A DNA stretch of 35,822 nt from a virus (IMGVR_UViG_3300009285_002889:1-35822); one strand, 5' to 3'; positions 2,042 through 35,771 are shown, numbered from the stretch's first letter. Numbers and translations are program-made. The notes: a model not told the origin generated them from the sequence alone.

Positions 2042-3534
2042 TTTGTCATCACCCCCAATGTCCAGATCTTGGGCTCAGTATTCGCTGAATCCGATGACAA
2101 CGATATCCGAACCAAACGTTTTACTCCGGTATTAGTTATACTATTTTTTATGCCTGTTATAATAGTCCGATAATTAAACCCGTCTCCATTGAACTCTACA
2201 GTACTATCTCCTAAATCTTCACCGTGAACTTCTATCTGTACACTTGCAGCAGTATAACCAAGATCCGGTAAGGTTATAATAACCGTCCCATCCGTCTGGC
2301 CAGATGCAAGCTTTAACGTGCTATTGGTTTCCTGTGTGTTTGTATGTGTACATATAGATGGGTTCTCATCAAACCGGACAACGTAGGAATCCAGCATGTC
2401 ATTCTCATTTTTTATTTCCTGCTGTTCTGATTGAATCGTAAATAAACTGGTGAATATCTTCGGTATATCTTTTAATTCCGATGCAAATTCTACCGACGTA
2501 ATCCAACCATTAGTACTTATATCATCCCGAATAACTTTACTGACAAAATAATCATTGATCTTACATAATGGCACTGAACATTTAATGCTCTGCCCCGGGA
2601 AAACCGTAGGCAAACCACCTGTAGCACGCAACACACCTTTCGCAGGAGCCGTAGTTAAAACATTATATTCTGCATCTAACTTAGTTTGCAGTTCACCCAT
2701 AGTACTTATATCCGATTCTGTAACTATTTCATCTTTAATCCATAAAACACCTTGATTTATCGTGTCCTCTTTAGTCTGCAAAAATATCACGTTAGTAGAA
2801 TCCTCAGCAGTGCTGCCATAGACATGAACACGATTTGCACGCTCCGAGTTTCGGGAACCCCAATCAGATAACCCGTCAAAGTTAATACCATATGATATAG
2901 ACTCGCTATTATTTGTCTGTGATGTAAATGCATTTATATCGTGCTTGTTGTTGGAGTTATTATATTTCAAATATCCATCATACCCCCCGCGAAGCAATAA
3001 ATCAGATATAATCTGTATTGCAGGTTTATAGATATATGTCGCTGTAACAGAAGTGGGTATATTGCCCAATGAAACATATTCTAGTATCCCGGAGAAATAA
3101 CTATCAATAATCTCTTTGATACAATCTGATACTATTTTATTTGTAAATGAAACTGTAATCTTTCTGTCAGATAGTTCAGGGACTTCTTTTCCCTCAAGAG
3201 TTATTGTGAAACCGTTCGCAAACGTACAACTGTAAAGAACGTCTTCAACTTTACCTTTGAAAATCCTATTGGTACCACCAGTATAATCCGCAAACACCTC
3301 AAACTTCTCCCCACCAGTATAACTATTCGTGAACTGGCCGTTGACATTGTCAAGAATGCATGTAAATGAACCGACACGATTTTGTCTCAGGCTTACCCGT
3401 TCAGTGCTCACGGAAAGAACCTTTGCAGTCTGGTCAACATCAGCTATCTCAACTACAAACACAGGTGTAAAAATCGCCTGTGGGATATAAATCGCTCCAC
3501 GACGTTTTAATTCAGTTGTTCTTGGGTCTACCAT
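2038..3534 (-). CDS. Tail hub / baseplate protein (gpD, gp27-like)
   Basis: This 498-residue protein should form the central hub at the tail tip. The N-terminal third carries a beta-rich domain typical of late-control-D/gp27-type hubs: a stretch around residues 55-95 (FTCILDNVNGQF, then FEVFADYTGG and FKGKVEDV) resembles the entry strands that specify coordinate-like offsets. The C-terminal 110 residues look like a separate beta domain. It follows the tape measure, a small tail protein and the giant surface protein, the usual tail-tip order. The assignment rests on motif style and position. Confidence 0.65.
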   Translation of the reverse strand: MVDPRTTELKRRGAIYIPQAIFTPVFVVEIADVDQTAKVLSVSTERVSLRQNRVGSFTCILDNVNGQFTNSYTGGEKFEVFADYTGGTNRIFKGKVEDVLYSCTFANGFTITLEGKEVPELSDRKITVSFTNKIVSDCIKEIIDSYFSGILEYVSLGNIPTSVTATYIYKPAIQIISDLLLRGGYDGYLKYNNSNNKHDINAFTSQTNNSESISYGINFDGLSDWGSRNSERANRVHVYGSTAEDSTNVIFLQTKEDTINQGVLWIKDEIVTESDISTMGELQTKLDAEYNVLTTAPAKGVLRATGGLPTVFPGQSIKCSVPLCKINDYFVSKVIRDDISTNGWITSVEFASELKDIPKIFTSLFTIQSEQQEIKNENDMLDSYVVRFDENPSICTHTNTQETNSTLKLASGQTDGTVIITLPDLGYTAASVQIEVHGEDLGDSTVEFNGDGFNYRTIITGIKNSITNTGVKRLVRISLSSDSANTEPKIWTLGVMTK

Positions 3535-3541
3535 GTCTTAA

Positions 3542-6500
3542 TCAACTCCGTATACATCCGGTACAGTATGAGTTAAATGCCAAAACCGGATCAAGAAAAT
3601 TAAAATTAGTCTCATTACACGATGTCAGGTTAACACGCATCCATAACCCATAATTGGAATTTAAAGCTATATTTGTCGTAACGTTCTGGTTTGTCGTAGT
3701 GGAAAAATTCAGCCATGTAGGAGTTGTTATAAAATTTGAGGTATTATACAGTGACATGTCCATACAACTCCCGTTTACGGTTTCATTAAATTTAACTACA
3801 ACATCTATTGCTCTATCATAAGCAAGATTCGTTATATTAAATATCGGTACAGTTTCCGACTGTCCGAACGGCTCCAGATTCTTATCGTTCGGTGTTATCG
3901 GGTATATATTCCAGATATCTATTCCTGACGGAAGAGATACGTTAAATATTGAATATTTAACCAATAAATCCCAAAGCGTGCTGTTTATGTTGTAATCGGG
4001 TGTATGCGCCCGGATAGTCATGTTTTTAGAGCCACGATAATCAAACTTTAAATCATTTATAGTTATATTTCCATTACTAAAGTTAAATGCGTATCTTATT
4101 GTATTTGATAATAAATCAAGTATGGATGCATTGAACTCAATTGGGTTTATATTATAGGTATAATTAAAATTATAAATTGTAATTACTCCGGCTATAGCAG
4201 ACTGTATTTGTATCGGAACCATACACGAAATAGAATTTAAACAATTCTCAGAAATATATGAATTGATATCTATTGTTTGCAGTGTTACATTTTGTGGTGA
4301 ATTGGTTTTATTTAGAATATTATTATATTTCCAGTCCCCAACCGCATCTATACCAATTGAAATATTCTCAGTGGAACCTTCTATCACATCAACATAAATT
4401 TTACTGATATATGCTCTATTTGAAGTATTACTATTCGTAATTATAGTGCGCCATTTTAAATCTGTTCCCGGTACAGTTATAGTTTGATCTACTCCTAAGT
4501 TGTCTATATCTGTCCAGTTTACACCATTATTGGAACTTATCTGAAATATAACATTTGTATCTGTATCAATAAAATAATCTGCATTTAATACTGCTGAGGT
4601 AATGTTATTTGTAGTATTTTTTATGCGATTGGAAACGGCAGTTATGTTACTGGAATTATAATTCCCCGTAGTGTTAACATAAGGATAAATTCCGGTTGTA
4701 TTTAAATAAAACATTTCAACAGTTCCATTTCCTCTTACCATTGATGTGCTTTTTGGTGCATTTGTAGTTTCCCAGACAAATTCCCAACTTTGTGCCGGAT
4801 TTAATGCTGAAACAGACGTACTCCCTGAATTTGTCCCAACATCACCGGCAGCACAGGAGTGCGTCATATTAGCCCACCATACCCAATCTACATTAGTATC
4901 TGACGTTTTTGTAATATTAAATTTATATCTCATTTCCCATGGGGCATCTGTAAAATAATAGGTACTATCCAGCCATATACAATCATCTCCTGCGCGCCCA
5001 TTAGGAGAATATTTAATATAAAAATTAAAAATTTCAACAGATGCTGCATCACCTTTCAGGTATGCTTTTAATGTAAAAGTATTGGATGGACTTGTCCCAC
5101 CCGAACTGGCTCTTATAAAACTACCATTTCCATCAACAAATAATGTCCGTATTTTACTAAAGTTAAAATTAGATGTTGTAGTAGATACAACAGCAGATTC
5201 TCCTGCAGCACAACCTGTTGAACTTGTAAATAATTTCATACTATCCTCTGCATTATTTATAGTAGCATTAGCATAAGAAATAAAAGTCCCACAACTAATT
5301 ACACTATTTGTCCATAATTTATTCATGGATTTATCGGCATTTTCAAAGCTATCCCATGATCCTATAAAGTTATTATTAACCATAGAAACTGTTGATGCGG
5401 AAGTATTCAGGTTTGTATTATTACGGAAATCCTCTTCAAAATCCAGAGCACCACCACTGTTAATTGTTGATCCATTTATCTGAAAGGTTAAATTATTTAT
5501 CAGGAATGCATTAGAATTTTTATTTATTTGTTTTGTTGAAACATTCATATAAATCGTTTTAATATCTGCCGCTATATAAGTTAAATCTTCAGATTGTTTA
5601 TAATTGGCAGAACTATAAAACCATAAATTATAAATGTCCGTATTTAGTAATCTCCCCATGTAATAGTTGTTAAGTATGAATTGTGTTCCGTTATAATAAC
5701 TAATACTAATGTTTTCGGGCGTTCCTGCAGAATTGCTAATATTAAATGTAGCATTATATAATTCAGTTCTATTATCAAGAAATACTGCAACTTCTGTATT
5801 AGGCAGGTTTATTCGTGAGGTATTTGTATCATTCAGTCGTGTTTCACGCAATAAATCTATCGGATACTGGAACGTTGATTCCGGAGCTAAACAGGTATAG
5901 TTAATAGTCGGGTTTATATTAATATCAATGTCATAACAAACATAGTTGGAATCGTTATAATATCGAATATTATCAACTAAACTTTGCGGGGGATTTCCTA
6001 CCCCGCTATTATTCCATAATAACCACAGCATATTATTATCAGAAAAACTTCGTACATCAATTGATACATTATACTCAGTTCCGGTTGTACTTTTATTGTA
6101 AACATTAGTATTCCCAATGTTAAACCGAAATGAAACTACTCCTGTTGTAGTTAAGTTTGTATCAAATACAATAAAGGCAATCGGAGTCAGATTAACTGAT
6201 TTATTAGCCCTACAATTAGAACATCCAGCCATAGCTTCCTGAAGTCCTATCGCGGTTACATTCCTGCTTGCCCATCCGGTAAATCTCCCGATTACATTGG
6301 TTAAATCCCAGCCATCAGAATTGATATCGTTTCCTGTTTCGAAGTCATCATAATCATAATCCAAATCAAATACAACCCCGATAGTTGCATTGGTTTCATA
6401 TTCATATAATGTATGGTTTTGCACTCCATTCAAAGTCACATTTAAATATCTTGTAACTGCTGTCCATGTCGGGTCAAGATACCCGTCTTTTGCATTTAAA

Positions 6501-6937
6501 CTCCATTTTACAGTTTCTTCGGGATTAAGTTTTAAACCATACAAAATGAATTTTAGCTGCGTTTTAGAAGGGAAATCCAATGGGGTTTTTTTCGTAAGCT
6601 TCTGTAAATCAAGATAACTATAATCTTCAAAAGTAATATTATTATAACCAATTGTTTTATTTTCTGTATAAATAAACAAATAAAATTCCCTAACCTGTGG
6701 TGTGAATGTAAATTTGATTTCATTCGGATTGTAAATTTTTACATCATATAACTGTGGATTTGTAATGTTAATATAAGAAATACACGGGTCATCATATGTC
6801 CCGGCACAGATATCGTCAGTTCCCGTTATCTGAAAATTAAATGCCAAAATAAATAATGCAAGCAACCCTGTCAACGTTCCACCAATGCCAGCACCAATTT
6901 TTATCCATTTGGCATTTTTACGTTTACGTCTGGTCAT
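3542..6937 (-). CDS. Giant sequon-rich surface protein with N-terminal membrane segment
   Basis: About 1131 residues. A basic N-terminus (TRRKRKNAKW) is followed by one hydrophobic segment (about residues 15-35), then a long beta-rich, Asn/Thr-rich ectodomain with dozens of N-x-S/T sequons and few cysteines, ending in CTGCIRS. This style is common in archaeal surface proteins. Its place between a small tail protein and the hub suggests a tail-tip or receptor-binding role, but a signal/anchor helix is odd for a tail protein. It may instead be displayed on the host surface. I prefer the ATG at 6937 over a TTG two codons earlier. Confidence 0.7.
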   Translation of the reverse strand: MTRRKRKNAKWIKIGAGIGGTLTGLLALFILAFNFQITGTDDICAGTYDDPCISYINITNPQLYDVKIYNPNEIKFTFTPQVREFYLFIYTENKTIGYNNITFEDYSYLDLQKLTKKTPLDFPSKTQLKFILYGLKLNPEETVKWSLNAKDGYLDPTWTAVTRYLNVTLNGVQNHTLYEYETNATIGVVFDLDYDYDDFETGNDINSDGWDLTNVIGRFTGWASRNVTAIGLQEAMAGCSNCRANKSVNLTPIAFIVFDTNLTTTGVVSFRFNIGNTNVYNKSTTGTEYNVSIDVRSFSDNNMLWLLWNNSGVGNPPQSLVDNIRYYNDSNYVCYDIDININPTINYTCLAPESTFQYPIDLLRETRLNDTNTSRINLPNTEVAVFLDNRTELYNATFNISNSAGTPENISISYYNGTQFILNNYYMGRLLNTDIYNLWFYSSANYKQSEDLTYIAADIKTIYMNVSTKQINKNSNAFLINNLTFQINGSTINSGGALDFEEDFRNNTNLNTSASTVSMVNNNFIGSWDSFENADKSMNKLWTNSVISCGTFISYANATINNAEDSMKLFTSSTGCAAGESAVVSTTTSNFNFSKIRTLFVDGNGSFIRASSGGTSPSNTFTLKAYLKGDAASVEIFNFYIKYSPNGRAGDDCIWLDSTYYFTDAPWEMRYKFNITKTSDTNVDWVWWANMTHSCAAGDVGTNSGSTSVSALNPAQSWEFVWETTNAPKSTSMVRGNGTVEMFYLNTTGIYPYVNTTGNYNSSNITAVSNRIKNTTNNITSAVLNADYFIDTDTNVIFQISSNNGVNWTDIDNLGVDQTITVPGTDLKWRTIITNSNTSNRAYISKIYVDVIEGSTENISIGIDAVGDWKYNNILNKTNSPQNVTLQTIDINSYISENCLNSISCMVPIQIQSAIAGVITIYNFNYTYNINPIEFNASILDLLSNTIRYAFNFSNGNITINDLKFDYRGSKNMTIRAHTPDYNINSTLWDLLVKYSIFNVSLPSGIDIWNIYPITPNDKNLEPFGQSETVPIFNITNLAYDRAIDVVVKFNETVNGSCMDMSLYNTSNFITTPTWLNFSTTTNQNVTTNIALNSNYGLWMRVNLTSCNETNFNFLDPVLAFNSYCTGCIRS

Positions 6938-7280
6938 ATTCAATTAACTCCATGTTATATCGTGAAGGTTGGGCGCCTGCATCCGTCCATGTCAGTCTTG
7001 TGATTATATATGATCCGGAGTCTATGCCATCAGTATACTTCTTTTTGGTGCCATCTTCCAATGCTTCTACATCTGTCCGATGCTGGTCTATAGTTTTAGT
7101 CCCGGAACCAATTATAATCCCGTTTGCGGATATTCGTGTCTGATAACTGTTTTTCCCCAGAACAGGAAGTTCTACAACATGTTTCCCTATGACTTGCAGG
7201 TTTACAGATGGCTCTACGTTTTTCTCTATCTGCTCCCAGAATAAATCAACAGACCCCAAAGTTATAGTAGCATATCCCAT
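6924..7280 (-). CDS. Small tail-tip protein
   Basis: This 118-residue beta-rich protein lies directly after the tape measure gene, where distal-tail or baseplate adaptor proteins are usually found. Conserved-looking features are the N-terminal ATITLGSVDL and a C-terminal strand YIITRLTWTD. There is no membrane segment or cysteine. Its 3' end overlaps the giant surface protein gene by 14 bases. A distal-tail or LysM-free baseplate role is inferred from position only. Confidence 0.5.
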   Translation of the reverse strand: MGYATITLGSVDLFWEQIEKNVEPSVNLQVIGKHVVELPVLGKNSYQTRISANGIIIGSGTKTIDQHRTDVEALEDGTKKKYTDGIDSGSYIITRLTWTDAGAQPSRYNMELIEYDQT

Positions 7281-23943: not shown

Positions 23944-24237
23944 TCATTCCACCTCGCTGGTTTTTTGTTTAAGTTCAACACCTTCTTCCAACTGGATTTT
24001 TAATGCCTGAATCTGCTGCATAAGTGCAGTTAAGTTCTGCGCAGCTTCACGTTTCTTTATTCGGTATTCAGATTGTTGCAACTGGTAATTCATTCGCAGT
24101 CCGGTTGTAAGCATTAATTCTGCATATTGCAATAGATATTTCTGATAGTCTGATTCTTCCTGCATCCTGTTTATAGATTTTTCTATAAAATGCTTTTCTT
24201 CCCCGGTTAGTTCACGTTTTGTCATTTTGAATGGCAT
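23944..24237 (-). CDS. Helical protein with coiled coil
   Basis: The 97-residue product is almost all helix, with a coiled coil over about residues 50-90 (REAAQNLTALMQQIQALKIQ). It overlaps the glycosyltransferase stop by 26 bases; a start at an ATG 12 bases further in (24225) is also possible. It marks the border between the modification island and the packaging genes. Function unknown. Confidence 0.5.
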   Translation of the reverse strand: MPFKMTKRELTGEEKHFIEKSINRMQEESDYQKYLLQYAELMLTTGLRMNYQLQQSEYRIKKREAAQNLTALMQQIQALKIQLEEGVELKQKTSEVE

Positions 24238-25345
24238 TTAATAATTTCTCAGCCGAATGTTTCCATTGCCAGTTATTTATAATTTCCTGCCGACCACGTA
24301 TCCCTTTTCGTTTGCATTCTTCCGGATGTTCATAAGCATAACGCATTAATGTTTTTAAATGATTTAAATTCGGCTTATTCCATGATATACCTTCATATAT
24401 CCAATCGTATTCGACTTCGATAGGTGTCGAATCTATCAACCATCCGTTTTGTTCATTAATAAATTCTGATTGGCCATTGAATTTAGTCGTTATAATAGGC
24501 AAACCACATGATAACGCCTGCGCACAACCTAAACCAAAGGCTTCACCCATTGTCGGACTAATAAAACAATCCCCATTATAAATCAGTGGTAAATCTTTAT
24601 ATAAGATATTATTTGTACTTATATACAACGGTGGACGTTCATTAGGCAGGTTTAATTTTCGTAACTCTGTATGTAAATCCCAACCGGGATGTAAATATGC
24701 TGGATTTATTTTAATGTTAAGTGCAACTTTTTCGTTTGACTTAAATTCTTCACAGTACGCTTTAATTAAGAATTGAACACCCCCCCTGTCATTCATACCG
24801 TGAGCCCAGCCTTTATCTGCTATAAATACAAAACTCTCATTTTGTTTTTCCTGTGGGAGAAATGCATCTATATTAACTCCATGCGGAATTATTATAATTT
24901 TTTTCGATATAAATTCAAAGAAAAGAGGAGGTTTAAACTGTTTACAAGTACTTAATATTGCATCTCTAACATGTTTACTTGGGACAAGAATATTTCTTAT
25001 GTCAAATTTATCCATATCACCTGTTTTAACCATACAATCTATAAAAAATAATGGAACCATATCACCTTCCCATACACAAAAACCATAAAACGCTTTTTGT
25101 GTTCTATGTGAATATAAATCCCAGAACTGAGGCATAGTAATGCATATTGTAATCCCATCATTAAACCATGAAGTACTAATTGCTTTTAATTCATTATCAT
25201 TTATAGCCAATTCCCAACCAAGTGATAAATGTGTTACTAAATGTATATGGGGATTTATCTTATAAAGTGCATTAAATAAACCTCGTGCATGGTTTTGATA
25301 TCCCGAACTTCCTAAAATATCCCCTATAAAATTAATTGGTATCAT
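24212..25345 (-). CDS. GT4-type glycosyltransferase
   Basis: This 377-residue GT-B enzyme resembles retaining GT4 transferases: a Gly-rich N-terminal loop (GDILGSSGYQNHARG), the linker IIPHGVNIDAF near residue 153, and the donor-binding stretch PTMGEAFGLGCAQALSCGLP near 265-283. The usual E-x7-E motif reads E268-x7-Q276, so the second glutamate is replaced. It is the last gene of the island and overlaps the E1-like gene by 14 bases. The sugar and acceptor are unknown. Confidence 0.8.
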   Translation of the reverse strand: MIPINFIGDILGSSGYQNHARGLFNALYKINPHIHLVTHLSLGWELAINDNELKAISTSWFNDGITICITMPQFWDLYSHRTQKAFYGFCVWEGDMVPLFFIDCMVKTGDMDKFDIRNILVPSKHVRDAILSTCKQFKPPLFFEFISKKIIIIPHGVNIDAFLPQEKQNESFVFIADKGWAHGMNDRGGVQFLIKAYCEEFKSNEKVALNIKINPAYLHPGWDLHTELRKLNLPNERPPLYISTNNILYKDLPLIYNGDCFISPTMGEAFGLGCAQALSCGLPIITTKFNGQSEFINEQNGWLIDSTPIEVEYDWIYEGISWNKPNLNHLKTLMRYAYEHPEECKRKGIRGRQEIINNWQWKHSAEKLLNAIQNDKT

Positions 25346-26003
25346 TCTTTATTTTACTTTTTATGAAATTATAATCATTAAAATCACAGGATATAATCTC
25401 TGAATATGGCTCGTTATTTAAAACTTTTTTAAATTGTTCAATCATTACAGCCGATACAGCATAAACATTTTGTATTATCCCTTTTTCTGAACATGCACCT
25501 ATATGTCCTTCACCTAACATGCTTTTTATATATTGTTTTACAAGTTTTATATTTCCCATGTTAATAGTATAAACTGAAAAAATCAAAGCATGCATTCTTC
25601 CATCTATGATTAATTTTGGATTTCCCGTTTTTTCATAACTTGATAATGCTGCATACATTATATGCCTTCTCGATTTTAAAGAATCAACACAAATAAATAA
25701 GACCTCAACATTCATTTCTGTCCGGGGATTAACTTTAGAATGTAAAATATTAATATTATTTGAAAATAAAAAATGCTGAATTGCATTAGTTTTATTATAA
25801 TCAATATGTTCTTGAAGATATAGTTGTGTATGGATATTGTGTTTTTCAATCTTATCAAAATCCGCAAGAACAAAATTATTAAAACCTATTTTATTTAAAC
25901 CAAAGGTAACAAAACTGCCAATACTACCTAAACCAACAATACCTATCTTTAAATAATTAAATAATTTAACATCCAAAATCCCGGTTTGATTGCGAAAATC
26001 CAT
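25332..26003 (-). CDS. ThiF/E1-type adenylating enzyme
   Basis: Residues 18-115 form a Rossmann domain with G24-x-G-x-x-G29, acidic ADFD (Asp48, Asp50), N56-x3-Q60, K71 and C-V-D107, the ATP/Mg signature of E1 and ThiF/MoeB proteins that adenylate the C-terminal glycine of a ubiquitin-like partner. The arginine normal in NxxRQ is Thr59. The MoeB-type zinc cysteines are absent. Cys171 (GACSEKG) is the main thiol candidate, although it aligns with a structural position in ThiF. At 223 residues it is minimal. Its ATG overlaps the JAB stop (TAATG). Confidence 0.85.
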   Translation of the reverse strand: MDFRNQTGILDVKLFNYLKIGIVGLGSIGSFVTFGLNKIGFNNFVLADFDKIEKHNIHTQLYLQEHIDYNKTNAIQHFLFSNNINILHSKVNPRTEMNVEVLFICVDSLKSRRHIMYAALSSYEKTGNPKLIIDGRMHALIFSVYTINMGNIKLVKQYIKSMLGEGHIGACSEKGIIQNVYAVSAVMIEQFKKVLNNEPYSEIISCDFNDYNFIKSKIKNDTN

Positions 26004-26419
26004 TATTTTACAAAATTATTTAAATCAATTTCAAAAGATTTTTTTATTTCAAATTGTCTCTTTTCATTTAATATTGTATATATATACAATAACTTCCTGT
26101 TTTGCTGCAATATTAAGGAATAACATTCCCCCCAAAAATTAGTTAGATCTATCATAGTGTTTTTATCCATTGAACTATATCCATTTATAGGATGTTTATG
26201 AAACCAACCTTTAATAAACCCAAATTTAGTTTCATGTTTTAATAATTTATTTATCCCTAATAAAACATATCCAAAATCACTAAATTTTACATCAATAATC
26301 AAATCAGATATAATATTATTTTCTATTATTAAATATCCCCCAAATTCTTTATTTTCAAAATCAGATTCATTTTCCAGTATTTTTTTTATAACATCTATTT
26401 TAATTAGCAATCTTTCCAT
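26003..26419 (-). CDS. JAB/JAMM metalloprotease
   Basis: This 138-residue protein carries the zinc-protease motif: Glu25 (KEFGGYL), then GWF-H74-K-H76-P, Ser82 and Asp85, near the E...HxH...SxxD consensus, with a 5-residue rather than the common 7-residue gap between His76 and Ser82. JAB enzymes remove or trim ubiquitin-like proteins at Gly-Gly. It overlaps the ubiquitin-like gene by 16 bases and the E1-like gene by one, so all three are tightly coupled. It probably cuts the fusion protein after Gly70 and may also reverse conjugation. Confidence 0.85.
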   Translation of the reverse strand: MERLLIKIDVIKKILENESDFENKEFGGYLIIENNIISDLIIDVKFSDFGYVLLGINKLLKHETKFGFIKGWFHKHPINGYSSMDKNTMIDLTNFWGECYSLILQQNRKLLYIYTILNEKRQFEIKKSFEIDLNNFVK

Positions 26420-27141
26420 TTTCTATACCCATTAGAATCGTCTTTTGATTGTAAAACTGCACAAACTAATTCAAGACATCCAAGAAAATTTTTCGATAAA
26501 AAAAAAGCATTATATCCTTCAAGATTTGCACCCATACAAAGATAATGCGGAGATTTGAATGCGATAAATGGATTATCCCATTCGTCTTTTAATATATTAA
26601 TTCGTCTTGCAATAGGGTTTTTATCTAACCGAATATAATATTTCCCTTTATCCCCTAAATTTACCTTAAATTCTCTTTTTTCAAAATCAATTATTTGTTT
26701 AACAATAGATAATGAAGCAATTAAATGTTTTTGATCGTTTAATGAATTTAAAGGTATATTAACTTTAAATAACCCCCCATTATCTACTAATGAAACAAAT
26801 CGCAAGTCCTCTGAACATACTAAATCTTTTTTTATGTTATTATTTCCAATTCTATTTCGAGGTGTGTAACTATTAATAACATCCGGTAGTATATCAGTTT
26901 CACTACTAATACTACCAATTGAATTAAAACTACCACCCTGTATTCGTGGAATAACTGTAACATTAGTTTTTACAACATGTGTATCTTCCAGTTTATTTCC
27001 ATCAGGATCTACAACATTTAACTCTAAATTAGACAAACCTAATAAATTTTTTAAATCATTTATTGTTTGCCCTTTTTCAAGAGTTACTTCTTCTCTTTGT
27101 TTTCCCATTTGATTTACCTGAATCTTTATTTTATCTGCCAT
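26404..27141 (-). CDS. Ubiquitin-like domain fused to probable E2-like domain
   Basis: Residues 3-70 form a beta-grasp, ubiquitin-like unit: strand KIKIQVNQ, strand EEVTLEKG, helix TINDLKNLLG, strand LELNVVDPDGNKL and final strand VTVIPRIQGG, with Gly69-Gly70 exactly at the domain end. After a polar linker, residues about 108-245 contain strands, then NPFIAFKSPHYLCMG (190-204) and two helices. This resembles E2 folds, with Cys202 as the candidate active cysteine. I chose the ATG at 27141, after GAGGTGG. The ubiquitin-like part is firm; the E2-like part is inference. Confidence 0.7.
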   Translation of the reverse strand: MADKIKIQVNQMGKQREEVTLEKGQTINDLKNLLGLSNLELNVVDPDGNKLEDTHVVKTNVTVIPRIQGGSFNSIGSISSETDILPDVINSYTPRNRIGNNNIKKDLVCSEDLRFVSLVDNGGLFKVNIPLNSLNDQKHLIASLSIVKQIIDFEKREFKVNLGDKGKYYIRLDKNPIARRINILKDEWDNPFIAFKSPHYLCMGANLEGYNAFFLSKNFLGCLELVCAVLQSKDDSNGYRKWKDC

Positions 27142-27159
27142 ATATTCCCACCTCATTAT

Positions 27160-28077
27160 TCATAATTCATTGCAATATATTAAATTTGTATTTTTATACA
27201 AACTCCTAAGTTTATCCTGTTCGGTTTCTTTTATGCCTAAACGTTCATGGTAGTCTTCAATAAAATCTCCGTGTTTTTGATACATTCGTTTTGTCCACCG
27301 GTTTAATAATATCTGGTTTTGTTTGTTTAACTCGTCTTTATTTGTACGCCTATCCCCACCAGAAGGCGTACATAAATGCCATGCTACTGCACCAGTATCC
27401 ACGCCTAATTTATATCCTTTTAATATGGCATGAAATGAAAAGAACTGCTCCTCACGAAACCCGGAAGGTGTTAAGGTCTCTTCATATTTTACAGTCTCAT
27501 GAACTTCTCTTTTTATTAATGCACAGCTCCGAAAATGGTCTGTCGGCAGAATGTCTGAACCAATATAAGTCTGTCCACAATCATCACAATTAATTAAAAA
27601 TGTCCCGTCTGCATTTAATACAACACGATTTATTATAGGCAATATGAATTTCATGTCACGCGGGGTTTCAGGATTTAATATTGGGGGAGTAACCCCAGAC
27701 ATCAAATCATATCCCCGTATAATTCCCTTATATAAAAAAGCCAAATAATTAGGATTGAGAATCACGTCATCATCCAGTCTGCAAAATAAGTCTCCAGTCC
27801 CGTTTTTAAGAACATAATCCACCAACATTTGTCTGTCCATTGCAACACCCCGGCTTTTATCTGCATGAATTATTTCTAAATTATGCTGTTCAAATTTCAT
27901 GCGCTGAATTAAACACTGCAAAAAATAATACGTTTCTGGCGGAGTTCCCGAACAACAATCTAAGATATATACATCAAAATCCTGATATGTCTGAGTACGT
28001 AAAGATTGCAGTAATAATCCCAATTCTGTCGGGCGATCTTTATAATTAATCAAAATATCAATTTTCATTTTTACCAT
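27160..28077 (-). CDS. GT2-type glycosyltransferase
   Basis: This 305-residue GT-A enzyme starts IDILINYKDRPTELG, with a DDD metal/nucleotide motif at 102-104 (CRLDDDVILN) and a C-terminal catalytic-base region (SGFREEQFFSFHAILKG, VAWHL). No membrane segments, so it is a soluble transferase. An ATG at 28068 is a possible alternative start. It follows the sugar dehydrogenase by a short overlap and precedes the ubiquitin-like gene. Donor and acceptor are unknown. Confidence 0.82.
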   Translation of the reverse strand: MVKMKIDILINYKDRPTELGLLLQSLRTQTYQDFDVYILDCCSGTPPETYYFLQCLIQRMKFEQHNLEIIHADKSRGVAMDRQMLVDYVLKNGTGDLFCRLDDDVILNPNYLAFLYKGIIRGYDLMSGVTPPILNPETPRDMKFILPIINRVVLNADGTFLINCDDCGQTYIGSDILPTDHFRSCALIKREVHETVKYEETLTPSGFREEQFFSFHAILKGYKLGVDTGAVAWHLCTPSGGDRRTNKDELNKQNQILLNRWTKRMYQKHGDFIEDYHERLGIKETEQDKLRSLYKNTNLIYCNEL

Positions 28078-29183
28078 ACATTTATAACAGTTATATCCTC
28101 AGGAAATAATTGATCCATTGGCATCATTATAACTACCAATTTTGCATCTTTTAATTCGTCAGAATATACAAAATATCCCATTGATTCGAGTTGTTCTTTT
28201 AACCGTATTGCCGGACTTTCAAAGGTATAAATTGTATGAGGAGAATATGATTTACCAAAGATTGCCACTTTATTTTTTAAAATGTTTTCCGGTTCTAAAT
28301 GTAATAACACCTTTTGTAAAATGCTCTGATAAACCGCTTCATTAATCTCATCTGTAAGCTTACAATAGTTTAAAACCCCATACGAATCCAAAACCAAACT
28401 AAATGCTTTATTATCTCTTGGGAAACACGGCCCGGCATACGGTGCCCCGGGCTTAAAATACCGGTTATTAATACGTGAATCTATACCGATAATATCTGCA
28501 ATTTGTTTTGCATCTGTATTATTTATTTTTTCACATAACAAATTAAGCATATTCGCAAAGCTTATCTTCATTGTAATATACGAATTAAGTGCAATCTTGG
28601 AAATTTCTGCATTTGCCCAGTTTGTACGTTTTATCTGTGCATTATTTTGCAATACCCGACAATATATAGTTTCAAGCAAATCCCCGGCAGATTTATCTTC
28701 TTCTCCTATCAGAACAAAATCAGGATTTTCTATGCCATAGATCACATTTCCAAGAGCAATAAATTCTGGATTATAACATAAAGAAATATTATCAGGCAGT
28801 TCACCTTTTAATTCCGGATAACTCCCCGGCATTACTGTACTATTAACAACAAATACTTTACAGTGTTTCATATAATAATATGCTGACCTTATAGCATCTA
28901 TAATATACTCATTCGAGAACATACCCGAATCCAGACTCGGTGTCGGCACAACACAAAATATAATTTCACAGTCCTGTAAATTGGAAAAAGAAGAACTAAT
29001 CATTAACTGGTTATCACCTTCCAAAAGTTCCTTTAAATACGGTTCAAGATAAGATATATTATAATTTAAAAGAGATTTTATTAATTTCTTATCTATGTCT
29101 ATTCCCTTGACGTTATAATGTTTAGATAAAACTGCAGCCAGACATAATCCTAATTTTCCCAAACCTATAACTCCAATTTCCAT
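28071..29183 (-). CDS. UDP-glucose/GDP-mannose 6-dehydrogenase
   Basis: This 370-residue enzyme oxidises the C6 of a nucleotide sugar to a uronic acid with NAD. It has the N-terminal GxGxxG (IGVIGLGKLGLCLA), E-ISKIALNSY (Lys196, Asn200) and catalytic Cys253 in GAPYAGPCFPRDNKAF, followed by a short C-terminal Rossmann half. UDP-glucose and GDP-mannose enzymes cannot be separated here by eye; the neighbouring GDP-mannose epimerase favours GDP-mannose. It lies 2 bases after the GT2 gene upstream. Confidence 0.85.
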   Translation of the reverse strand: MEIGVIGLGKLGLCLAAVLSKHYNVKGIDIDKKLIKSLLNYNISYLEPYLKELLEGDNQLMISSSFSNLQDCEIIFCVVPTPSLDSGMFSNEYIIDAIRSAYYYMKHCKVFVVNSTVMPGSYPELKGELPDNISLCYNPEFIALGNVIYGIENPDFVLIGEEDKSAGDLLETIYCRVLQNNAQIKRTNWANAEISKIALNSYITMKISFANMLNLLCEKINNTDAKQIADIIGIDSRINNRYFKPGAPYAGPCFPRDNKAFSLVLDSYGVLNYCKLTDEINEAVYQSILQKVLLHLEPENILKNKVAIFGKSYSPHTIYTFESPAIRLKEQLESMGYFVYSDELKDAKLVVIMMPMDQLFPEDITVINVW

Positions 29184-29185
29184 TT

Positions 29186-29884
29186 TTAGTCTTTTATAAA
29201 CCCGAATTTTTTCCTGAAATATAACGCATTTTTTTGTTTTATATCCTCCAAATCATTTTGGTGTTCAGTCAATCTATGGTGATCTACCCAGAATGGTGCA
29301 GCAAAAATATGTAATTTTGCCTGAATTACACGGTAAGTAAAATCAATATCGTCTCCGGGACCGGGAGAATATGCTTCATCAAATTTACCTATTTTATTAA
29401 TGGTTTCCCGTGGAATAAACATACTCCATGTTCCGCACCACGGAAAACCTTTTAGATATTCTTCACCTGCAATTCCACCAGCGCCAAACGTTGTAACTAA
29501 ACCACAATTATCATTTTCTGCTGTTCTTTTCAATAAATAAATCCAGTCGTAATTATATAACTTAAAATGAATCACGTCATCCTGTGTAAGATATACATCC
29601 ATATCCCCGGCTTTATCTATTCCAAAATTAATTGCCATAGTTATACCCTTTTTTGGAATATGGTATGTCTGGATTATATCCGGATACCGTTGTACATAAC
29701 CATCACAAACCAAATCCGTTCCATCAGTAGATTCAGATTCTATCAAAAAAAGCTTAATAGGATAACTTATACTTTCAAGAATGCTATCTATCGCATACCT
29801 AAGATGCCTTCCACTATTATAACAAGGCAAAATAATCGCTATTGGCTTTATTTTGTCTTCTGTACTATCTGTTGTTCGACCCAT
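29186..29884 (-). CDS. GT2-type glycosyltransferase
   Basis: This 232-residue GT-A enzyme has IIPLC-like start AIILPCYNSGRHL, a Q-D102-D103 motif (YLTQDDVIH), PGPGDDIDFTYRV as the likely base region and VDHHRLTE near the end. The first 12 residues overlap the epimerase gene in another frame, so the true start may be slightly later. Within the island it probably adds one sugar of a surface glycan. Confidence 0.8.
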   Translation of the reverse strand: MGRTTDSTEDKIKPIAIILPCYNSGRHLRYAIDSILESISYPIKLFLIESESTDGTDLVCDGYVQRYPDIIQTYHIPKKGITMAINFGIDKAGDMDVYLTQDDVIHFKLYNYDWIYLLKRTAENDNCGLVTTFGAGGIAGEEYLKGFPWCGTWSMFIPRETINKIGKFDEAYSPGPGDDIDFTYRVIQAKLHIFAAPFWVDHHRLTEHQNDLEDIKQKNALYFRKKFGFIKD

Positions 29885-30825
29885 TTATATGTTGATTTTA
29901 ACCCTTTTTCTAATGTGATTTTTGGTTCCCAGTTATATAATCCTCTAAATAATGAATTATCTGAATTTCTTGATAGTACACCAATCGGGCCCGCAATATA
30001 ATTATAATCCGGGCTTATTTTAGCAATACTACAAATTAAATCCGCTAACTGTCTTATACTAACCATTTCATCCCGGCCTAAATTAACCGGCCAGCTATAA
30101 AAACCCCTCATTATTAATTCCAGTCCCGTTACACAGTCATCAATATAGCAATAACTTCGGGTTTGTGTACCGTCACCCCATATCGAAATAAACGGTTCAT
30201 TATGTAATTTGGCAGCTGCAACTTTCCGGCATAATGCTGCAGGAGACTTTTCTTTCCCGCCGTCATACGTTCCTTCCGGGCCGTATATATTATGAAACCG
30301 CACAATCCTGCAATCAAGACCGGATTCCAATAATAACTCTTCTGAAAACAACTTTTCAGAACCATACGAATCCTGCGGCTGCGCCGGATATGCATCAGAC
30401 TCCATTAATGGAGAAATGTTATCTTTTCCCTGTTTATATTCCGGATAGATACATGCTGATGATGAAAATAAGAATTTCTTAACATTGCATTTACGCGCGG
30501 CTTCGATCATATTCAGATTAATTAAACTATTATTCCTGCGGATGGAATACTGATTTCCAGTTGGCGAAATATAACCTATCCCACCCATATCTGCCGCTAA
30601 ATGATAAACCTCATCAAGTGGTTGGCCTTTTACTGCATTACAAACCATTAATGCATCTAAAGAACGCCGTAAATCTACCAGACGAAACTCATTCAGGTTA
30701 GTACCATATTCCAATGGTTTTATATCTACGCCTTTCACATAATGTCCCTGTGCAGATAAATGATTAGCTAAATGATGCCCGATAAACCCGGATACTCCCG
30801 TTATAAGGATATTTTTCTTATCCAT
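29848..30825 (-). CDS. GDP-mannose 3,5-epimerase-like enzyme
   Basis: This short-chain dehydrogenase family enzyme (325 residues) has the NAD motif GVSGFIG and hallmarks of GDP-mannose 3,5-epimerases: HLAADMGGIGYIS, SSSACIYPE with the catalytic Cys, Tyr-x3-Lys in SYGSEK, RFHNIYGPEGT, EKSPAALCRK and WGDGTQTRS. The closest known activity converts GDP-mannose to GDP-L-galactose/gulose. GAGG before the ATG at 30825 decides the start over a TTG at 30840. It overlaps the FkbM gene by 8 bases. Confidence 0.85.
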   Translation of the reverse strand: MDKKNILITGVSGFIGHHLANHLSAQGHYVKGVDIKPLEYGTNLNEFRLVDLRRSLDALMVCNAVKGQPLDEVYHLAADMGGIGYISPTGNQYSIRRNNSLINLNMIEAARKCNVKKFLFSSSACIYPEYKQGKDNISPLMESDAYPAQPQDSYGSEKLFSEELLLESGLDCRIVRFHNIYGPEGTYDGGKEKSPAALCRKVAAAKLHNEPFISIWGDGTQTRSYCYIDDCVTGLELIMRGFYSWPVNLGRDEMVSIRQLADLICSIAKISPDYNYIAGPIGVLSRNSDNSLFRGLYNWEPKITLEKGLKSTYKWVEQQIVQKTK

Positions 30826-31372
30826 TCTTTGGCCTCGCAATAAGATTCAGGTTATCTATTATTTCAATCGAATAGCCCCAGTCTTCCAATATCTGTTTTA
30901 CATTAGGAGTATGATTATATTCAATTATAATAATGGGTTTATGTTCTATTATTGTTTCTTTTGCACCAAGCAAAACTTTATCAGAAGTCGTTTCAGCATC
31001 TATTTTAATTATTTTTATATTCAGAATTCCTTTAAAAAACTCATCAATGGTTGTCGTAGTTCTATCTGATTGTTCTACAATTTCGATATCGTCCATTCCT
31101 CTAATAGTTTCATGTTCTTTTATTTTATAAGGCAATGATTTATCGTATAACGCACGATGGATGGGAATAACACAAATAATCCCGTCAGATATAATTCTAT
31201 TATAAAGTATACTATAATTCCTGTCTGAAGGCTCAAATGCAAAACAAAACCCATCAAGAAACAATTCAACTGTATCCCCAATACATGCACCTACGTCTAT
31301 ATAAATATCTGGATCTTTTAACTTCTGTAATTCCCTACCTAATATTTCATAAGTTTTATCCTCTTCACCCAT
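30818..31372 (-). CDS. FkbM-type methyltransferase
   Basis: This 184-residue SAM-dependent methyltransferase has motif I IDVGACIGDTVELF, FEPSDRNYSIL and the family-typical TTTTIDEFF, IKIIKIDAET and KPIIIIEYNH. FkbM enzymes usually O-methylate sugars. GGTGA 5 bases before the ATG at 31372 favours that start over a GTG three codons earlier. It overlaps both neighbours, fitting sugar methylation within the same pathway. Confidence 0.85.
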   Translation of the reverse strand: MGEEDKTYEILGRELQKLKDPDIYIDVGACIGDTVELFLDGFCFAFEPSDRNYSILYNRIISDGIICVIPIHRALYDKSLPYKIKEHETIRGMDDIEIVEQSDRTTTTIDEFFKGILNIKIIKIDAETTSDKVLLGAKETIIEHKPIIIIEYNHTPNVKQILEDWGYSIEIIDNLNLIARPKNG

Positions 31373-32606
31373 TCTTTTCACCTATCAATAATTGATTAAC
31401 ATATAACCAGTTAGATGGTGCATCTGAAATTTTGAAACCGTATACTTCAAATATTTCAATCCATTCCGATTTAGTTTTATATAATTTATGTGATTTATCT
31501 GCCATGAGGTTAGGATCACCTATAAACGGGATAGAAAAAATAAACCTTTTCCCATATTTTAATATGTTCATTAAAGTCCTGTCTAATTGTTCTTCATCTA
31601 AATGTTCTAATATGTCTATTGCAGTAATTAAATCCCATTGCCCCCAATCTGCATTCATATCTGAAATATCTCCCTGTTCTATGTTTGGGCAAAATGCATT
31701 ATTTATTGCATATTGACTTAATTCTATTCCTTTTGTTTTATTTACAAACCATTGCCAGAAATAAAGGAATGGCCCTTTCCCGCACCCAAGATCAAGTACA
31801 CTTTCAGGCTTGAAAAAATCATGCCATTGTTTAACCATTATGGGATGTTTTAGTTCAATATTTCTATTCCTAAAATATATCTCATCTTTATTTATTAAAA
31901 ATTCATTTAATATTGACTTTGGCAATTCCATAATATCAAACTGTTTCCTGGGATAACTTCCTGTTAAATGCGCAAGATACCATTCTCTCAGATATTTAGG
32001 TGTATGCATATTACTTTTTTTTAAATGATTTTCATATCGTTTCTTAATATCCCATATAAAACTACAATATGCCAAATGCCAGATAACGGTACAATCAGTG
32101 TTACCCTTAACATTCCCCTGCAATACGGGATGTTCTACTTCCAAATACCCGGATGCCTCGCTTATCTTAAATAACCTATTCAGAACCCAATGTTTGTCAA
32201 CTGTTGTATCTTCGTGTGCCAAATCATTAATTAAATGCCGCATGTGAACTGAATATATTCCTTCTTCTTCAATCTGAATAAATGTCTTTATTTTAGATAA
32301 ATCATCAACTACTTCATCTGCATCAAGACATAACGCCCATTCCTCAGGATAGTTTTCTTTTAAATATGAAAGATAAAAATTCCTTTGTTTCCCATTCATT
32401 CCTAAATCATTTTGATTATAATTATGATAGATTAATTCAAATTTAGAACGATATTTATCGTTCCATTTATAGAACTTATTTAATGTATCCTGATCTTCCA
32501 TTCCCCAACAAAAGATAATCTTATCTGCTTCCAAAACTGATTCAAAACATATATCCAAAAACTTACTGCAATTATCACCCATTACACAAACTATTAATTT
32601 ATTCAT
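31365..32606 (-). CDS. GT2 glycosyltransferase fused to a methyltransferase
   Basis: Residues 1-230 form a GT2 domain with LDADEVV (Asp95, Asp97) and a probable acceptor region EHPVLQG. Residues about 250-413 form a class I methyltransferase with VLDLGCGKGPF (270-280), ITAIDILEHLD and a C-terminal sheet. The fusion suggests that one polypeptide adds a sugar and methylates it or a neighbour. No ribosome site is clear before its ATG. Confidence 0.85.
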   Translation of the reverse strand: MNKLIVCVMGDNCSKFLDICFESVLEADKIIFCWGMEDQDTLNKFYKWNDKYRSKFELIYHNYNQNDLGMNGKQRNFYLSYLKENYPEEWALCLDADEVVDDLSKIKTFIQIEEEGIYSVHMRHLINDLAHEDTTVDKHWVLNRLFKISEASGYLEVEHPVLQGNVKGNTDCTVIWHLAYCSFIWDIKKRYENHLKKSNMHTPKYLREWYLAHLTGSYPRKQFDIMELPKSILNEFLINKDEIYFRNRNIELKHPIMVKQWHDFFKPESVLDLGCGKGPFLYFWQWFVNKTKGIELSQYAINNAFCPNIEQGDISDMNADWGQWDLITAIDILEHLDEEQLDRTLMNILKYGKRFIFSIPFIGDPNLMADKSHKLYKTKSEWIEIFEVYGFKISDAPSNWLYVNQLLIGEKNG

Positions 32607-32632
32607 TTTTGTATTAATTTATTGATTATCGT

Positions 32633-32872
32633 TTAATTCTCTCCCTTTTTAAGACTCTCTATAATATTATTTAATATTAATTGAAATGCCTCTAATTTAT
32701 TCATACTATAATCTCCCGGATTTATTAAATAATACGCCCCTACATTTCCATACCCTTCTTTTTTACTTTCTTTAGATAATAATAAAAAAATGCCTTCTAT
32801 TTCGATATCATCTTCTACATATTTTTTTTTTATTAATTCAATATTCTCTTCAAATTGTTCTTTATTTTTCAC
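32633..32872 (-). CDS. Unknown 79-residue acidic protein
   Basis: The protein has an N-terminal helix (about 3-20), strands around IEIEGIFLLL and VGAYYLIN, and a C-terminal helix (about 60-75), suggesting a small alpha/beta domain. It starts with GTG, and GTGA overlaps the upstream stop by 4 bases. No family is recognised. It is probably co-translated with the gene at 32869. Confidence 0.5.
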   Translation of the reverse strand: MKNKEQFEENIELIKKKYVEDDIEIEGIFLLLSKESKKEGYGNVGAYYLINPGDYSMNKLEAFQLILNNIIESLKKGEN

Positions 32873-33015
32873 TTCTTTTTTTTACTATTTCTCCATTGCG
32901 ACATACAAATAACAACGGCCTGTTTCTGCGGCGTTCCTTCCTTCCTTAAAAATTTTATACATCTCTGTACAAATTCTCCCTGTTTTTCCTTATCTTCCGG
33001 TATTGGTACTGGCAT
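32869..33015 (-). CDS. Small phage-type protein
   Basis: This 48-residue protein, starting MPVPIPEDKEKQGEFVQRC and ending in a Lys run, resembles the short proteins with a conserved FVxRC and CxxxW pattern found near head genes of tailed phages. GAGGTGA gives a strong start. It overlaps the radical SAM gene by 26 bases. Finding it inside the modification island rather than beside the portal is a little unusual. Confidence 0.6.
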   Translation of the reverse strand: MPVPIPEDKEKQGEFVQRCIKFLRKEGTPQKQAVVICMSQWRNSKKKK

Positions 33016-34318
33016 TTTGTTCACCTCTGTTTTTTAATTTAATTAACATCTCCAGCCATAATGACTTTATCTGATTTCTATCCAACCCCCCGCTTTTTGA
33101 ATAATCAATATAACATGTCAACTTTTCATTGTCTGCACGGCATTGCGCTACGTCCCAGTTATTTGCAATGATTTCGTCTTCGAATATCTCGCATCCATAC
33201 TTATCCCTGTTAATCCATAATAACGTACTGGGGAATGGCGCCAACATATACCAGCTAACATTATCAACATAATGTTGTAACATAAACTGTAAACTTTGTT
33301 CTTCCGTTTCCCGTGAACAGCCTGGCAAACCCGTAATCATGTATGTCAATACTTTCATGCCTGCACTTTTGATTTTTCTGATGCCTTCGCTGTTTTGTTC
33401 AACCGTCATACCTTTATCACTTAGCTTTAAAATTTCGTTAGAACCGCTTTCAGTACCAATGCAAACTTCGATGCATCCGCTCTCTGCAAGCTTATCTGCC
33501 AGTTCAGGACACCGTTTAAAATCAGATGCCCTCGTAGTACATCTGTATGTAAAACCTTTACCTTTGAGTAATTCAGCGATTTTAACTACACGCTTCGTAT
33601 CTATAGTGAAAACGTCATCGTATATAATAAACGAATCTATCCCATAATTAAACCTTACTGCTTCCATCTCGATTAAAACTTTCTCAGGACTGTACGCACG
33701 AAAGCTCCCGTTTAAAATTGGTTCACTACAAAATACACAATGATATGGACATCCTTTACTCGTCATCAGACACGTAGCAGGTTTACCATTCATCTTTAAG
33801 GAATATTGCCCCATAGATACAAGTTCCCGTGCTGGCTGCGGTTGCCAGTCGAGGTTCTTAGCTCTGGATACCGGGACACTATAGATAATACGTTCCTGTG
33901 GAAACCCTTCTTTGCATATTGATTCCAGCGCCAGTTCTCCATCTCCAATAACAACATAATCAAATAACATGTATGGCATTACGTCTGATACAGATTTGAC
34001 ATGAACCATTGCAGTTGGATGCGCCCCGCCGGCTATAACCGGGATCTGCCGAAAATGATTTTTTATAAATCCTGCAGTCATAACAGCTTCATAATATTGG
34101 GGGGTAGTTAAACTTATCCCGATTATATCCGGTCTAAATTCTTCAATATAATTTTTTAATATAAAATCATTACAATGGTTCATGTCTATAACCCTTGGCT
34201 CTGCTGCATTTGTCTGCATCAACCATGATGCCAGATATAACGTCCCCAGAGACGGCCTGTCTCCTCCATTACGAAGCCATGGATCTGCAACGTTTATTAA
34301 AAGGATTTTCGGTTTCAT
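32990..34318 (-). CDS. B12-binding-type radical SAM enzyme
   Basis: The 442-residue protein has an N-terminal Rossmann-like domain of the B12-binding type (about 1-140; GGAHPTA, VIGDGE) and a radical SAM core with Cys190-x3-Cys194-x2-Cys197 (GCPYHCVFC) that binds a 4Fe-4S cluster. The usual B12 ligand motif DxHxxG is not obvious, so the cobalamin may be bound without it or lost. Such enzymes methylate or rearrange unreactive carbons, often in sugars or natural products. Its ATG overlaps the GT4 stop by ATGA. Confidence 0.88.
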   Translation of the reverse strand: MKPKILLINVADPWLRNGGDRPSLGTLYLASWLMQTNAAEPRVIDMNHCNDFILKNYIEEFRPDIIGISLTTPQYYEAVMTAGFIKNHFRQIPVIAGGAHPTAMVHVKSVSDVMPYMLFDYVVIGDGELALESICKEGFPQERIIYSVPVSRAKNLDWQPQPARELVSMGQYSLKMNGKPATCLMTSKGCPYHCVFCSEPILNGSFRAYSPEKVLIEMEAVRFNYGIDSFIIYDDVFTIDTKRVVKIAELLKGKGFTYRCTTRASDFKRCPELADKLAESGCIEVCIGTESGSNEILKLSDKGMTVEQNSEGIRKIKSAGMKVLTYMITGLPGCSRETEEQSLQFMLQHYVDNVSWYMLAPFPSTLLWINRDKYGCEIFEDEIIANNWDVAQCRADNEKLTCYIDYSKSGGLDRNQIKSLWLEMLIKLKNRGEQNASTNTGR

Positions 34319-35592
34319 GATTTAATTTTTTGCAATAACTCTTTCCATTGTGGGTGCACTACTAAATTTGAATAAAATTTTATAACTTTTTCCCTGCCGG
34401 TTTCACCAAAGTCCCGCCTTAATCCCGGATCGCAGTATAAAATATTTAACGCTTCTACACATTTAGGTATTGACATTATGCCACGTTCTACAGTCCATGA
34501 ACCTGTTATAGTTCCTTTATCAAAAACTTTATCAATTTCTAAAAAATTATGCATATTATCATATGAACTTTTCTCAACTTCTACAATCGGGACAGAAATC
34601 CCACATTGACCATTTTCCATGATAAGTTCCTGCGTTGTAGTAAAATCAGTAATTACAACCGGGATTTTACATGCCATTGCTTCAATGGTACATATCCCGA
34701 AACCTTCTCCAGAACTACTACTGAGATATATATCTTGTAGATTATATATCTCATTCATAATGTTCCGTTCTATATTTTCAAAGTATCGTATCGGAGAAAA
34801 TACAACACGATTTTCAATATTTAACCTTTTAATTAATTGTCGTATATCAAAAACCGCCGCAGAATCATAAATATCAAGATGTACATAAAGCAAAGCATCA
34901 GGTTTATCCTTGCAAAATAAAGAAAAGGATTTAATTGCCCTGTCGTGCATTTTCCTGCCCTGATTCCTGCCAACAATACCTACGATAAATCTATCTTTTA
35001 AAAGACCTTTAACAAATGTCCCGCTAACAGTCATAACAACTAAATTTTGTTTTAATTTGTTCTTTTCAAAATCAGATAACGGAAAGAACGCATTAATATC
35101 AATGGAATGTGGAATATACAGTAAATCCAGATTATAATAATCTTTAGCTTGTTTCTGTGCAAACTTCGACATTGCAACCACTGTATTAAAATGCTTCAGA
35201 ACCAATTCACATCCGTTCGGATATCCGCCGGTACCGTCACTTGGTACATATAAAATTGAATGCGCCGGACTAAAGTTCATATCAAGAATCCAAGGGTATA
35301 ACATGAAACTATCCAAGAGACATGTAAAGAAATCAGGCTGTAACCTCTGAATTCTCGGTAAAATCAAGTCACGACAATAATCTTCCCTCCCCCGGCCATG
35401 CAACCAAAACTTTAGTTCTGAGCCATCCTGAAACTTTATACCATGCGGAGGTAATATCTGGCCTAAATAATTTGAGCCCTGATAGTGTACTTCATAATCA
35501 TTACTAAGAAAGTTCATTAACTCCTTACTTATCGTACTATATCCTGTATTTGTTAAGGGGGAATCTGACAAATGCAAAATTTTTTGTTTAAT
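34315..35592 (-). CDS. GT4-type glycosyltransferase, first gene of the island
   Basis: This GT-B enzyme of about 425 residues begins KILHLSDSPLTNTGYST, a typical GT4 acceptor loop, has IVGRNQGRK in the second domain and a complete E-x7-E motif in SSSGEGFGICTIEAM. The canonical-looking start codons are poor: the frame offers TTG at 35577, but GGGGTGA is placed for an ATT at 35592, which also restores the expected lysine-isoleucine start. It is expressed from the cassette after the right pentamer tract and overlaps the radical SAM gene by ATGA. Confidence 0.82.
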   Translation of the reverse strand: MKQKILHLSDSPLTNTGYSTISKELMNFLSNDYEVHYQGSNYLGQILPPHGIKFQDGSELKFWLHGRGREDYCRDLILPRIQRLQPDFFTCLLDSFMLYPWILDMNFSPAHSILYVPSDGTGGYPNGCELVLKHFNTVVAMSKFAQKQAKDYYNLDLLYIPHSIDINAFFPLSDFEKNKLKQNLVVMTVSGTFVKGLLKDRFIVGIVGRNQGRKMHDRAIKSFSLFCKDKPDALLYVHLDIYDSAAVFDIRQLIKRLNIENRVVFSPIRYFENIERNIMNEIYNLQDIYLSSSSGEGFGICTIEAMACKIPVVITDFTTTQELIMENGQCGISVPIVEVEKSSYDNMHNFLEIDKVFDKGTITGSWTVERGIMSIPKCVEALNILYCDPGLRRDFGETGREKVIKFYSNLVVHPQWKELLQKIKS

Positions 35593-35616: not shown

Positions 35617-35771
35617 CCATGCCTCGCCCTGCCAAGCCATGCCTCGCCCTGCCTAGCCGTGCCGCGCCCTGCCTAGCCCCACCCCGCCCAGCCATGCCTG
35701 GCCCTGCCATGCCGCGCCCCGCCTCGCCTCGCCATGCCGCGCCAAGCCATACCCTGCCACACCTTGCCATG
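35617..35771 (-). repeat. Degenerate GGCNN pentamer tract (right)
   Basis: Thirty-one pentamers (CCNNG on the plus strand, GGCNN on the minus) run without interruption apart from a few GGT units. A 36-base run is identical to the left tract at 1042-1077 in inverted orientation. The remaining bases to 35822 hold no gene; peptides read through the tract are low-complexity and not credible. Confidence 0.9.

Follow-up and report, generated by a model that had tools for sequence, protein, structure and literature searches.

Among prokaryotes, ubiquitin-like tagging is known above all as a weapon that hosts use against viruses, as in the Bil and CBASS systems. Archaeal SAMP systems, to our knowledge, need no dedicated E2. 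Operon type 6d of Iyer, Burroughs & Aravind 2006, which is PRTRC-like, reportedly comprises a ubiquitin-like modifier (Ubl), a JAB protease, an E1 and an E2-like protein. Bacterial operon types combining Ubl, E2-like, JAB and E1 components were described by Iyer et al. (2006; PMC1779556), with the type 6d E2-like protein having a Cys and a conserved downstream His (PMC1779556). The Bil system has a two-Ubl BilA, a BilD with inactive and active adenylation domains, and a BilB with a CEHH motif (PMC11354881).

Here, we analyzed a viral record of 35,822 bases from IMG/VR (hereafter, the window), which is classed as linear and is possibly a fragment. Three minus-strand genes (26404-27156, 26003-26419 and 25332-26003), which overlap as the initial annotation had described, encode proteins of 250, 138 and 223 aa and sit within a co-directional run of genes whose ends touch or overlap. 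Our main reading, to which we assign a probability of roughly 0.6, is that these genes form a virus-encoded Ubl conjugation cassette, analogous to the Ubl-E2-JAB-E1 operons of phages and bacteria and compressed by the fusion of the Ubl to an E2-like domain. The cassette and its surroundings are as follows:

24212..25345, minus strand: GT4-type glycosyltransferase (Pfam Glycos_transf_1, 7e-9), sharing 14 bases with the end of the E1 gene
25332..26003, minus strand: E1-like adenylating enzyme, 223 aa, single Rossmann domain (Pfam ThiF 8e-15, invariant residues, tree)
26003..26419, minus strand: JAB/JAMM metalloprotease, 138 aa (motif, weak PADLOC JAB match, relative in contig L049, hhalign)
26404..26931, minus strand: C-terminal extension, linker and putative E2-like domain (sequence motif and position 5' of JAB)
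26932..27156, minus strand: Ubl domain, predicted beta-grasp, SAMP2-like (SAMP2 Pfam and NCBIfam matches stopping at Gly-Gly)
27160..28077, minus strand: GT2-type glycosyltransferase (Pfam Glycos_transf_2, 5e-8), stopping 3 bases before the start of the Ubl gene
28071..35577, minus strand: rest of the co-directional sugar/surface island (Pfam)

The Ubl comprises residues 1-75 of the 250-aa protein and ends in Gly74-Gly75. A Ubl with a Gly-Gly end had been proposed earlier from the second ATG at 27141, which places the pair at Gly69-Gly70; the Ubl and its end stand, but counted from the first ATG the glycines are residues 74-75. In a profile search, the whole 250-aa protein matched SAMP2 at E 1.2e-4 (22.8 bits; cut-off 27), and the isolated Ubl domain did so at E 8e-6 and 26.6 bits, just below the Pfam cut-off of 27. 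The NCBIfam SAMP2 profile aligned to residues 11-75, with its last position on the Gly-Gly at residue 75, such that the match terminates exactly at the di-glycine. Because a 175-aa extension continues beyond this point, the Ubl is probably made as a precursor, and there is good evidence for residues 1-75 as a predicted beta-grasp modifier with a di-glycine end.

The 223-aa protein matched Pfam ThiF (PF00899) at 8e-15 (55 bits; cut-off 28.1) and has the ATP-site residues of an E1, namely GxGxxG at 24-29 (G24, G26, G29), D48, N56, K71 and D107, in agreement with its earlier designation as an E1/ThiF enzyme. By alignment, it keeps all invariant residues of JAB-linked phage E1s, also including D50, R112, D134-G-R136, Y158 and Cys171, the last being a candidate catalytic cysteine. 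It has neither a rhodanese domain nor a CxxC motif. In a maximum-likelihood tree, the neighbors of the window E1 are 14 phage or phage-like E1s, nearly all of them linked to a JAB, whereas nine ThiF and two MoeB proteins lie apart from it; its branch is long and its placement weakly supported. The protein does not belong to the UbaA family, scoring 14.2 bits with the UbaA profile against a cut-off of 450. As a single query, the E1 sequence found no relatives in viral contigs, and an E1 alignment was therefore used as the query.

The 138-aa protein carries the complete JAMM ligand and catalytic set (E25, H74-x-H76, S82 and D85) in the short-loop form, H-x-H-x5-S-x2-D, a pattern seen in 0.05% of shuffles in a post hoc test. 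It had no Pfam profile match, and its match to the PADLOC JAB profile was weak (E 0.022). Two JAMM DNA-pattern scans of viral contigs yielded one real relative, in contig L049, and otherwise unrelated matches. The L049 JAB shares 38% identity with the window JAB over the motif region (E 2e-5, single-record search), is also of the short-loop form and has an E1 gene in its own run of genes; the contig stops just upstream of the JAB gene. The window JAB protein alone as a query found no relatives in viral contigs or phages, and by hhalign it aligned over the motif with a set of phage JABs (set A4; E 8e-5 for the pair). The complete E-HxH-S-D set and the E1-linked viral relative support the JAB assignment.

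The order E2-like, JAB, E1 recurs in crAss-like phages (Steigviridae), Flavobacterium phages (Fipvunavirus) and other phages. The products gp78-gp76 of crAss001 are annotated as hypothetical, metalloprotease and ThiF, and in crAss-like cassettes the E2-like protein is annotated as hypothetical and the E1 as thiamine biosynthesis. No paper describing the phage sets as conjugation cassettes was found in the open literature, of which our coverage was incomplete. Three crAss-like loci (L013, 6480-10657; L027, 6259-10636; L001, 2977-6648) each form one run near primase and uracil-DNA glycosylase genes, and in L013 and L027 a Ubl-like candidate lies upstream of the E2-like, JAB and E1 genes. Uracil-DNA glycosylase genes are found near the cassettes of both crAss-like and Flavobacterium phages, with primase, exonuclease and ribonucleotide reductase genes additionally near the former. 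The gene immediately 5' of JAB encodes a conserved Cys-x-Gly protein in crAss-like, Flavobacterium and several uncultured phages. In contig L025, from an uncultured phage, the E2-like, JAB and E1 genes are preceded by a gene for a small protein that terminates in ...GGDQ and matches ThiS weakly (E 0.004). Two small proteins in this cassette (1703-1963 and 3409-3693) end in ...SGGDQ and ...YGGPK, as JAB-trimmed Ubl precursors would.

The crAss-like E2-like protein was modeled with AlphaFold from an alignment of five sequences from viral-contig loci. The model had a pLDDT of 68 and comprised a helix, a meander of three strands, an active-site loop carrying the invariant Cys, and two helices. The best VIA-align rows for this model were mostly UBC/RWD/E2 structures (Z 3.0-5.7), including RWD domains, Ubc12, E2-25K, Ubc3, UFC1 and a bacterial E1-E2-Ubl complex. 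Given that these Z values are below 8, hence modest, and that a Foldseek search against the PDB returned nothing significant, we regard the modeled resemblance to UBC/RWD folds as supportive, not proof.

The window cassette resembles those of the phages in its gene order, in its overlapping or near-touching gene ends, in the residues invariant among the E1s, DGR and the candidate catalytic Cys among them, and, for L013 and L027, in having a Ubl-like candidate upstream. The phage cassettes differ in that they belong to bacterial phages, that the Ubl (where identified) and the E2-like protein are separate, larger genes where the window has a fusion, and that their JABs have the canonical longer loop, unlike the short-loop JAB of the window. 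Their surroundings also include uracil-DNA glycosylase genes, joined in crAss-like phages by genes for primase and ribonucleotide reductase, whereas the window trio is set among sugar genes. The trio is thus an unusually compact variant, with Ubl and putative E2 fused, and not a wholly new kind of system. Protein scans of viral contigs, genome contigs, phages and plasmids returned no relatives of the Ubl-E2 protein and no close relatives of the whole trio, and its occurrence in one record only counts against reading it as a conjugation cassette.

The extension consists of a polar linker, at about residues 76-105, followed by the putative E2-like domain. The latter was assigned from its position directly 5' of JAB and from the motif P-H-x2-L-C207-x-G, which reads S-P-H-Y-L-Cys207-M-G in full (Cys207 codon at 26536-26538). 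The PH...C.G pattern arose in 0.25% of shuffles in a post hoc test, compared with 26% for a bare Cys-x-Gly motif. There is no His downstream of Cys207. Residues 76-250 had no family match in the profile libraries searched, and a single-sequence structure model of the Ubl-E2 protein was not interpretable (pLDDT 35). HMM and hhalign comparisons of the extension with phage E2-like profiles were not convincingly better than those of shuffles; in the best local alignment to the widest such profile, the Cys-x-Gly motifs were paired, and 7 of 150 shuffles did as well. These results did not confirm the probable E2-like domain proposed by the initial annotation. By analogy, the extension would be the positional counterpart of the phage E2-like proteins, with S-P-H-Y-L-Cys207-M-G as its presumed, not proven, active site.

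The same observations bear on a different explanation, in which the locus performs SAMP-like conjugation with no E2 at all. The extension would then be a domain of some other kind, such as a tail for targeting or maturation, with E1 and JAB sufficing as do UbaA and HvJAMM1 in haloarchaea. Such a scheme fits a Ubl that is closest to SAMP2, an extension with no E2 profile match and a bare Cys-x-Gly motif that shuffling produces so readily. We nevertheless consider it rather unlikely, as the gene directly 5' of the phage JAB repeatedly encodes a Cys-containing E2-like protein, the longer P-H-x2-L-C-x-G motif is rarer than bare Cys-x-Gly, and the E1 reaches only about 14 bits of the 450-bit UbaA cut-off. 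The archaeal SAMP2/UbaA/HvJAMM1 system is like the window in having a JAB protease, and the window Ubl domain is closest to SAMP2; the two differ in that the window E1 is not UbaA-like, the Ubl is a fusion precursor and an E2-like candidate is present.

Compared with bacterial operons, the locus is like type 6d in having a Ubl with a C-terminal glycine, a JAB adjoining a rhodanese-free E1 and a Cys-containing E2-like candidate. It differs from type 6d in the fusion of the Ubl to the E2-like part and in lacking an alpha-helical partner, a His after Cys207 and the N-terminal alpha+beta JAB-N domain, for which a 138-aa protein with E25 near its start has no room. Type 6e resembles the window in that a Ubl is fused ahead of an E2-superfamily domain, a putative one in the window, but there a polyUbl, usually of several Ubl domains, is fused to an inactive E2/RWD-like domain lacking the Cys, and JAB (or domain X) is fused to E1; the window has a single Ubl, keeps Cys207 in its E2-like candidate and encodes JAB and E1 separately. 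The Bil (BilABCD) and Bub anti-phage operons also unite Ubl, E2, JAB and E1 functions. The window set, however, is on the virus side, with one Ubl, no CEHH motif, no His after Cys207 and a 223-aa E1 that lacks the inactive adenylation half and the Cys domain. The likeness to Bil drawn previously is loose, holding for the shared functions and failing for the single Ubl and single-domain E1.

In the preferred reading, that of a conjugation cassette, JAB would cut the precursor after Gly75, freeing both the Ubl C-terminus and the E2-like domain. The E1, whose residues for this chemistry are present, would adenylate the Ubl with ATP and then hold it as a thioester on Cys171. From there, the Ubl would pass to Cys207 of the E2-like domain and on to target lysines, with no E3 involved, and JAB could also remove it from targets in an editing role. 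Host proteins or defense factors are at least as likely to be such targets as virion glycoproteins; because the cassettes of bacterial phages lie near DNA-metabolism genes, a surface target is only one option. A virion or surface protein had been put forward initially, and this gains no support from the comparable phage cassettes, which adjoin uracil-DNA glycosylase genes. Given that E2-like/JAB/E1 cassettes exist in cultured phages, i.e., crAss001 and relatives and Flavobacterium phages such as Fpv3, with the E1 labeled as thiamine biosynthesis and the E2-like gene as hypothetical, their function can be tested at the bench now.

Beyond the sugar genes, the window encodes tailed-virus packaging and structural proteins, i.e., terminase, a portal fused to a head protein, protease, capsid and tail tube. 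Distant matches of the capsid, portal and terminase to phage records include haloarchaeal tailed viruses and some bacterial phages. A 1133-aa protein (3542-6943, minus strand) with an N-terminal hydrophobic segment contains 60 N-x-S/T sequons, compared with 28.4 +/- 4.7 in shuffles and 32 occurrences of the reversed motif; it had no match in phages and is probably a heavily N-glycosylated surface protein. Its sequon excess, which is the best hint at an archaeal host, together with the capsid, portal and terminase matches, indicates that the host is probably archaeal, in keeping with the archaeal tailed-virus setting first suggested. Shine-Dalgarno-like motifs precede many of the structural genes, and the sugar and cassette genes lack them. 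For a virus, apparently one of archaea, to bring along a Ubl, a protease and an activating enzyme would imply that the attacker exploits the same chemistry. We tentatively put forward, as a possibility on the doubtful side, that this is the first archaeal virus with its own complete precursor-encoded Ubl pathway, in which a JAB-cut, E1-charged Ubl-E2 fusion would tag host or virion proteins during infection.

Archaeal Borg elements carry numerous predicted de-SAMPylases, for which a role in countering host tagging was proposed (PMC12660748); theirs is a related but opposite strategy to that of the window cassette. The viral Ubl, E1 and JAB might act as a counter-defense by interference, competing with or reversing SAMP-type tagging of viral proteins by the host. 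The Borg precedent, the SAMP2-like nature of the window Ubl and the interference of bacterial ubiquitin-like tags with phage assembly (Hor et al., 2024, as cited in PMC12660748) speak for this, but a pure antagonist would not need its own E1 with intact active-site residues, and we think it distinctly unlikely.

The surroundings of the cassette are those of glycosylation, as recognized from the outset: glycosyltransferases, a nucleotide-sugar dehydrogenase, an epimerase and methyltransferases flank it. By Pfam, the island contains UDP-glucose/GDP-mannose dehydrogenase, GT2, epimerase, FkbM methyltransferase, methyltransferase, B12-binding radical SAM (32990-34318, minus strand) and GT4 proteins. 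The third-position GC of the trio is 0.15-0.17, however, versus 0.22-0.36 in the other genes examined in the window. As the trio is AT-richer than the neighboring sugar genes, this suggests that it was acquired separately from them. A functional link to glycosylation thus gains no support, either from base composition or from the phage cassettes, which lie near DNA-metabolism genes.

A thiocarboxylated Ubl could instead serve as a sulfur carrier, donating sulfur to a thiosugar made by the island, with JAB trimming or recycling the carrier. Sugar genes do adjoin the cassette on either side, overlapping it or almost touching it, and ThiS/MoaD-type carriers share the E1 chemistry. This earlier-raised alternative found no positive support, however, as a Pfam scan of window proteins in this possibly fragmentary record revealed no ThiG/BexX-like thiosugar synthase, rhodanese, cysteine synthase or sulfurtransferase. 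The E1 has neither CxxC nor rhodanese and does not group with ThiF/MoeB in the tree, and JAB genes were absent from the thiamine and molybdenum cofactor operons in Iyer et al. (2006; PMC1779556); we judge the sulfur-carrier reading very improbable. A plain thiamine or molybdenum cofactor pair was dropped because a JAB is present and the E1 lies outside ThiF/MoeB, and chance resemblance because profile and motif evidence falls in three adjacent genes.

Two further features were observed. In the Xanthomonas phage PhiXhv-12 (L004, 2310-5684), the gene immediately preceding an E1 that is annotated as thiamine biosynthesis encodes a hypothetical protein of 892 aa with an E2-like motif, HPH...LCLG; this may be a fused version of the cassette in jumbo phages. 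Finally, GC-rich pentamer-like arrays (GGCRT repeats) lie near both ends of the otherwise AT-rich window record, at 1042-1111 and 35617-35748, and are in inverted orientation, with 91% complementarity over 55 nt.
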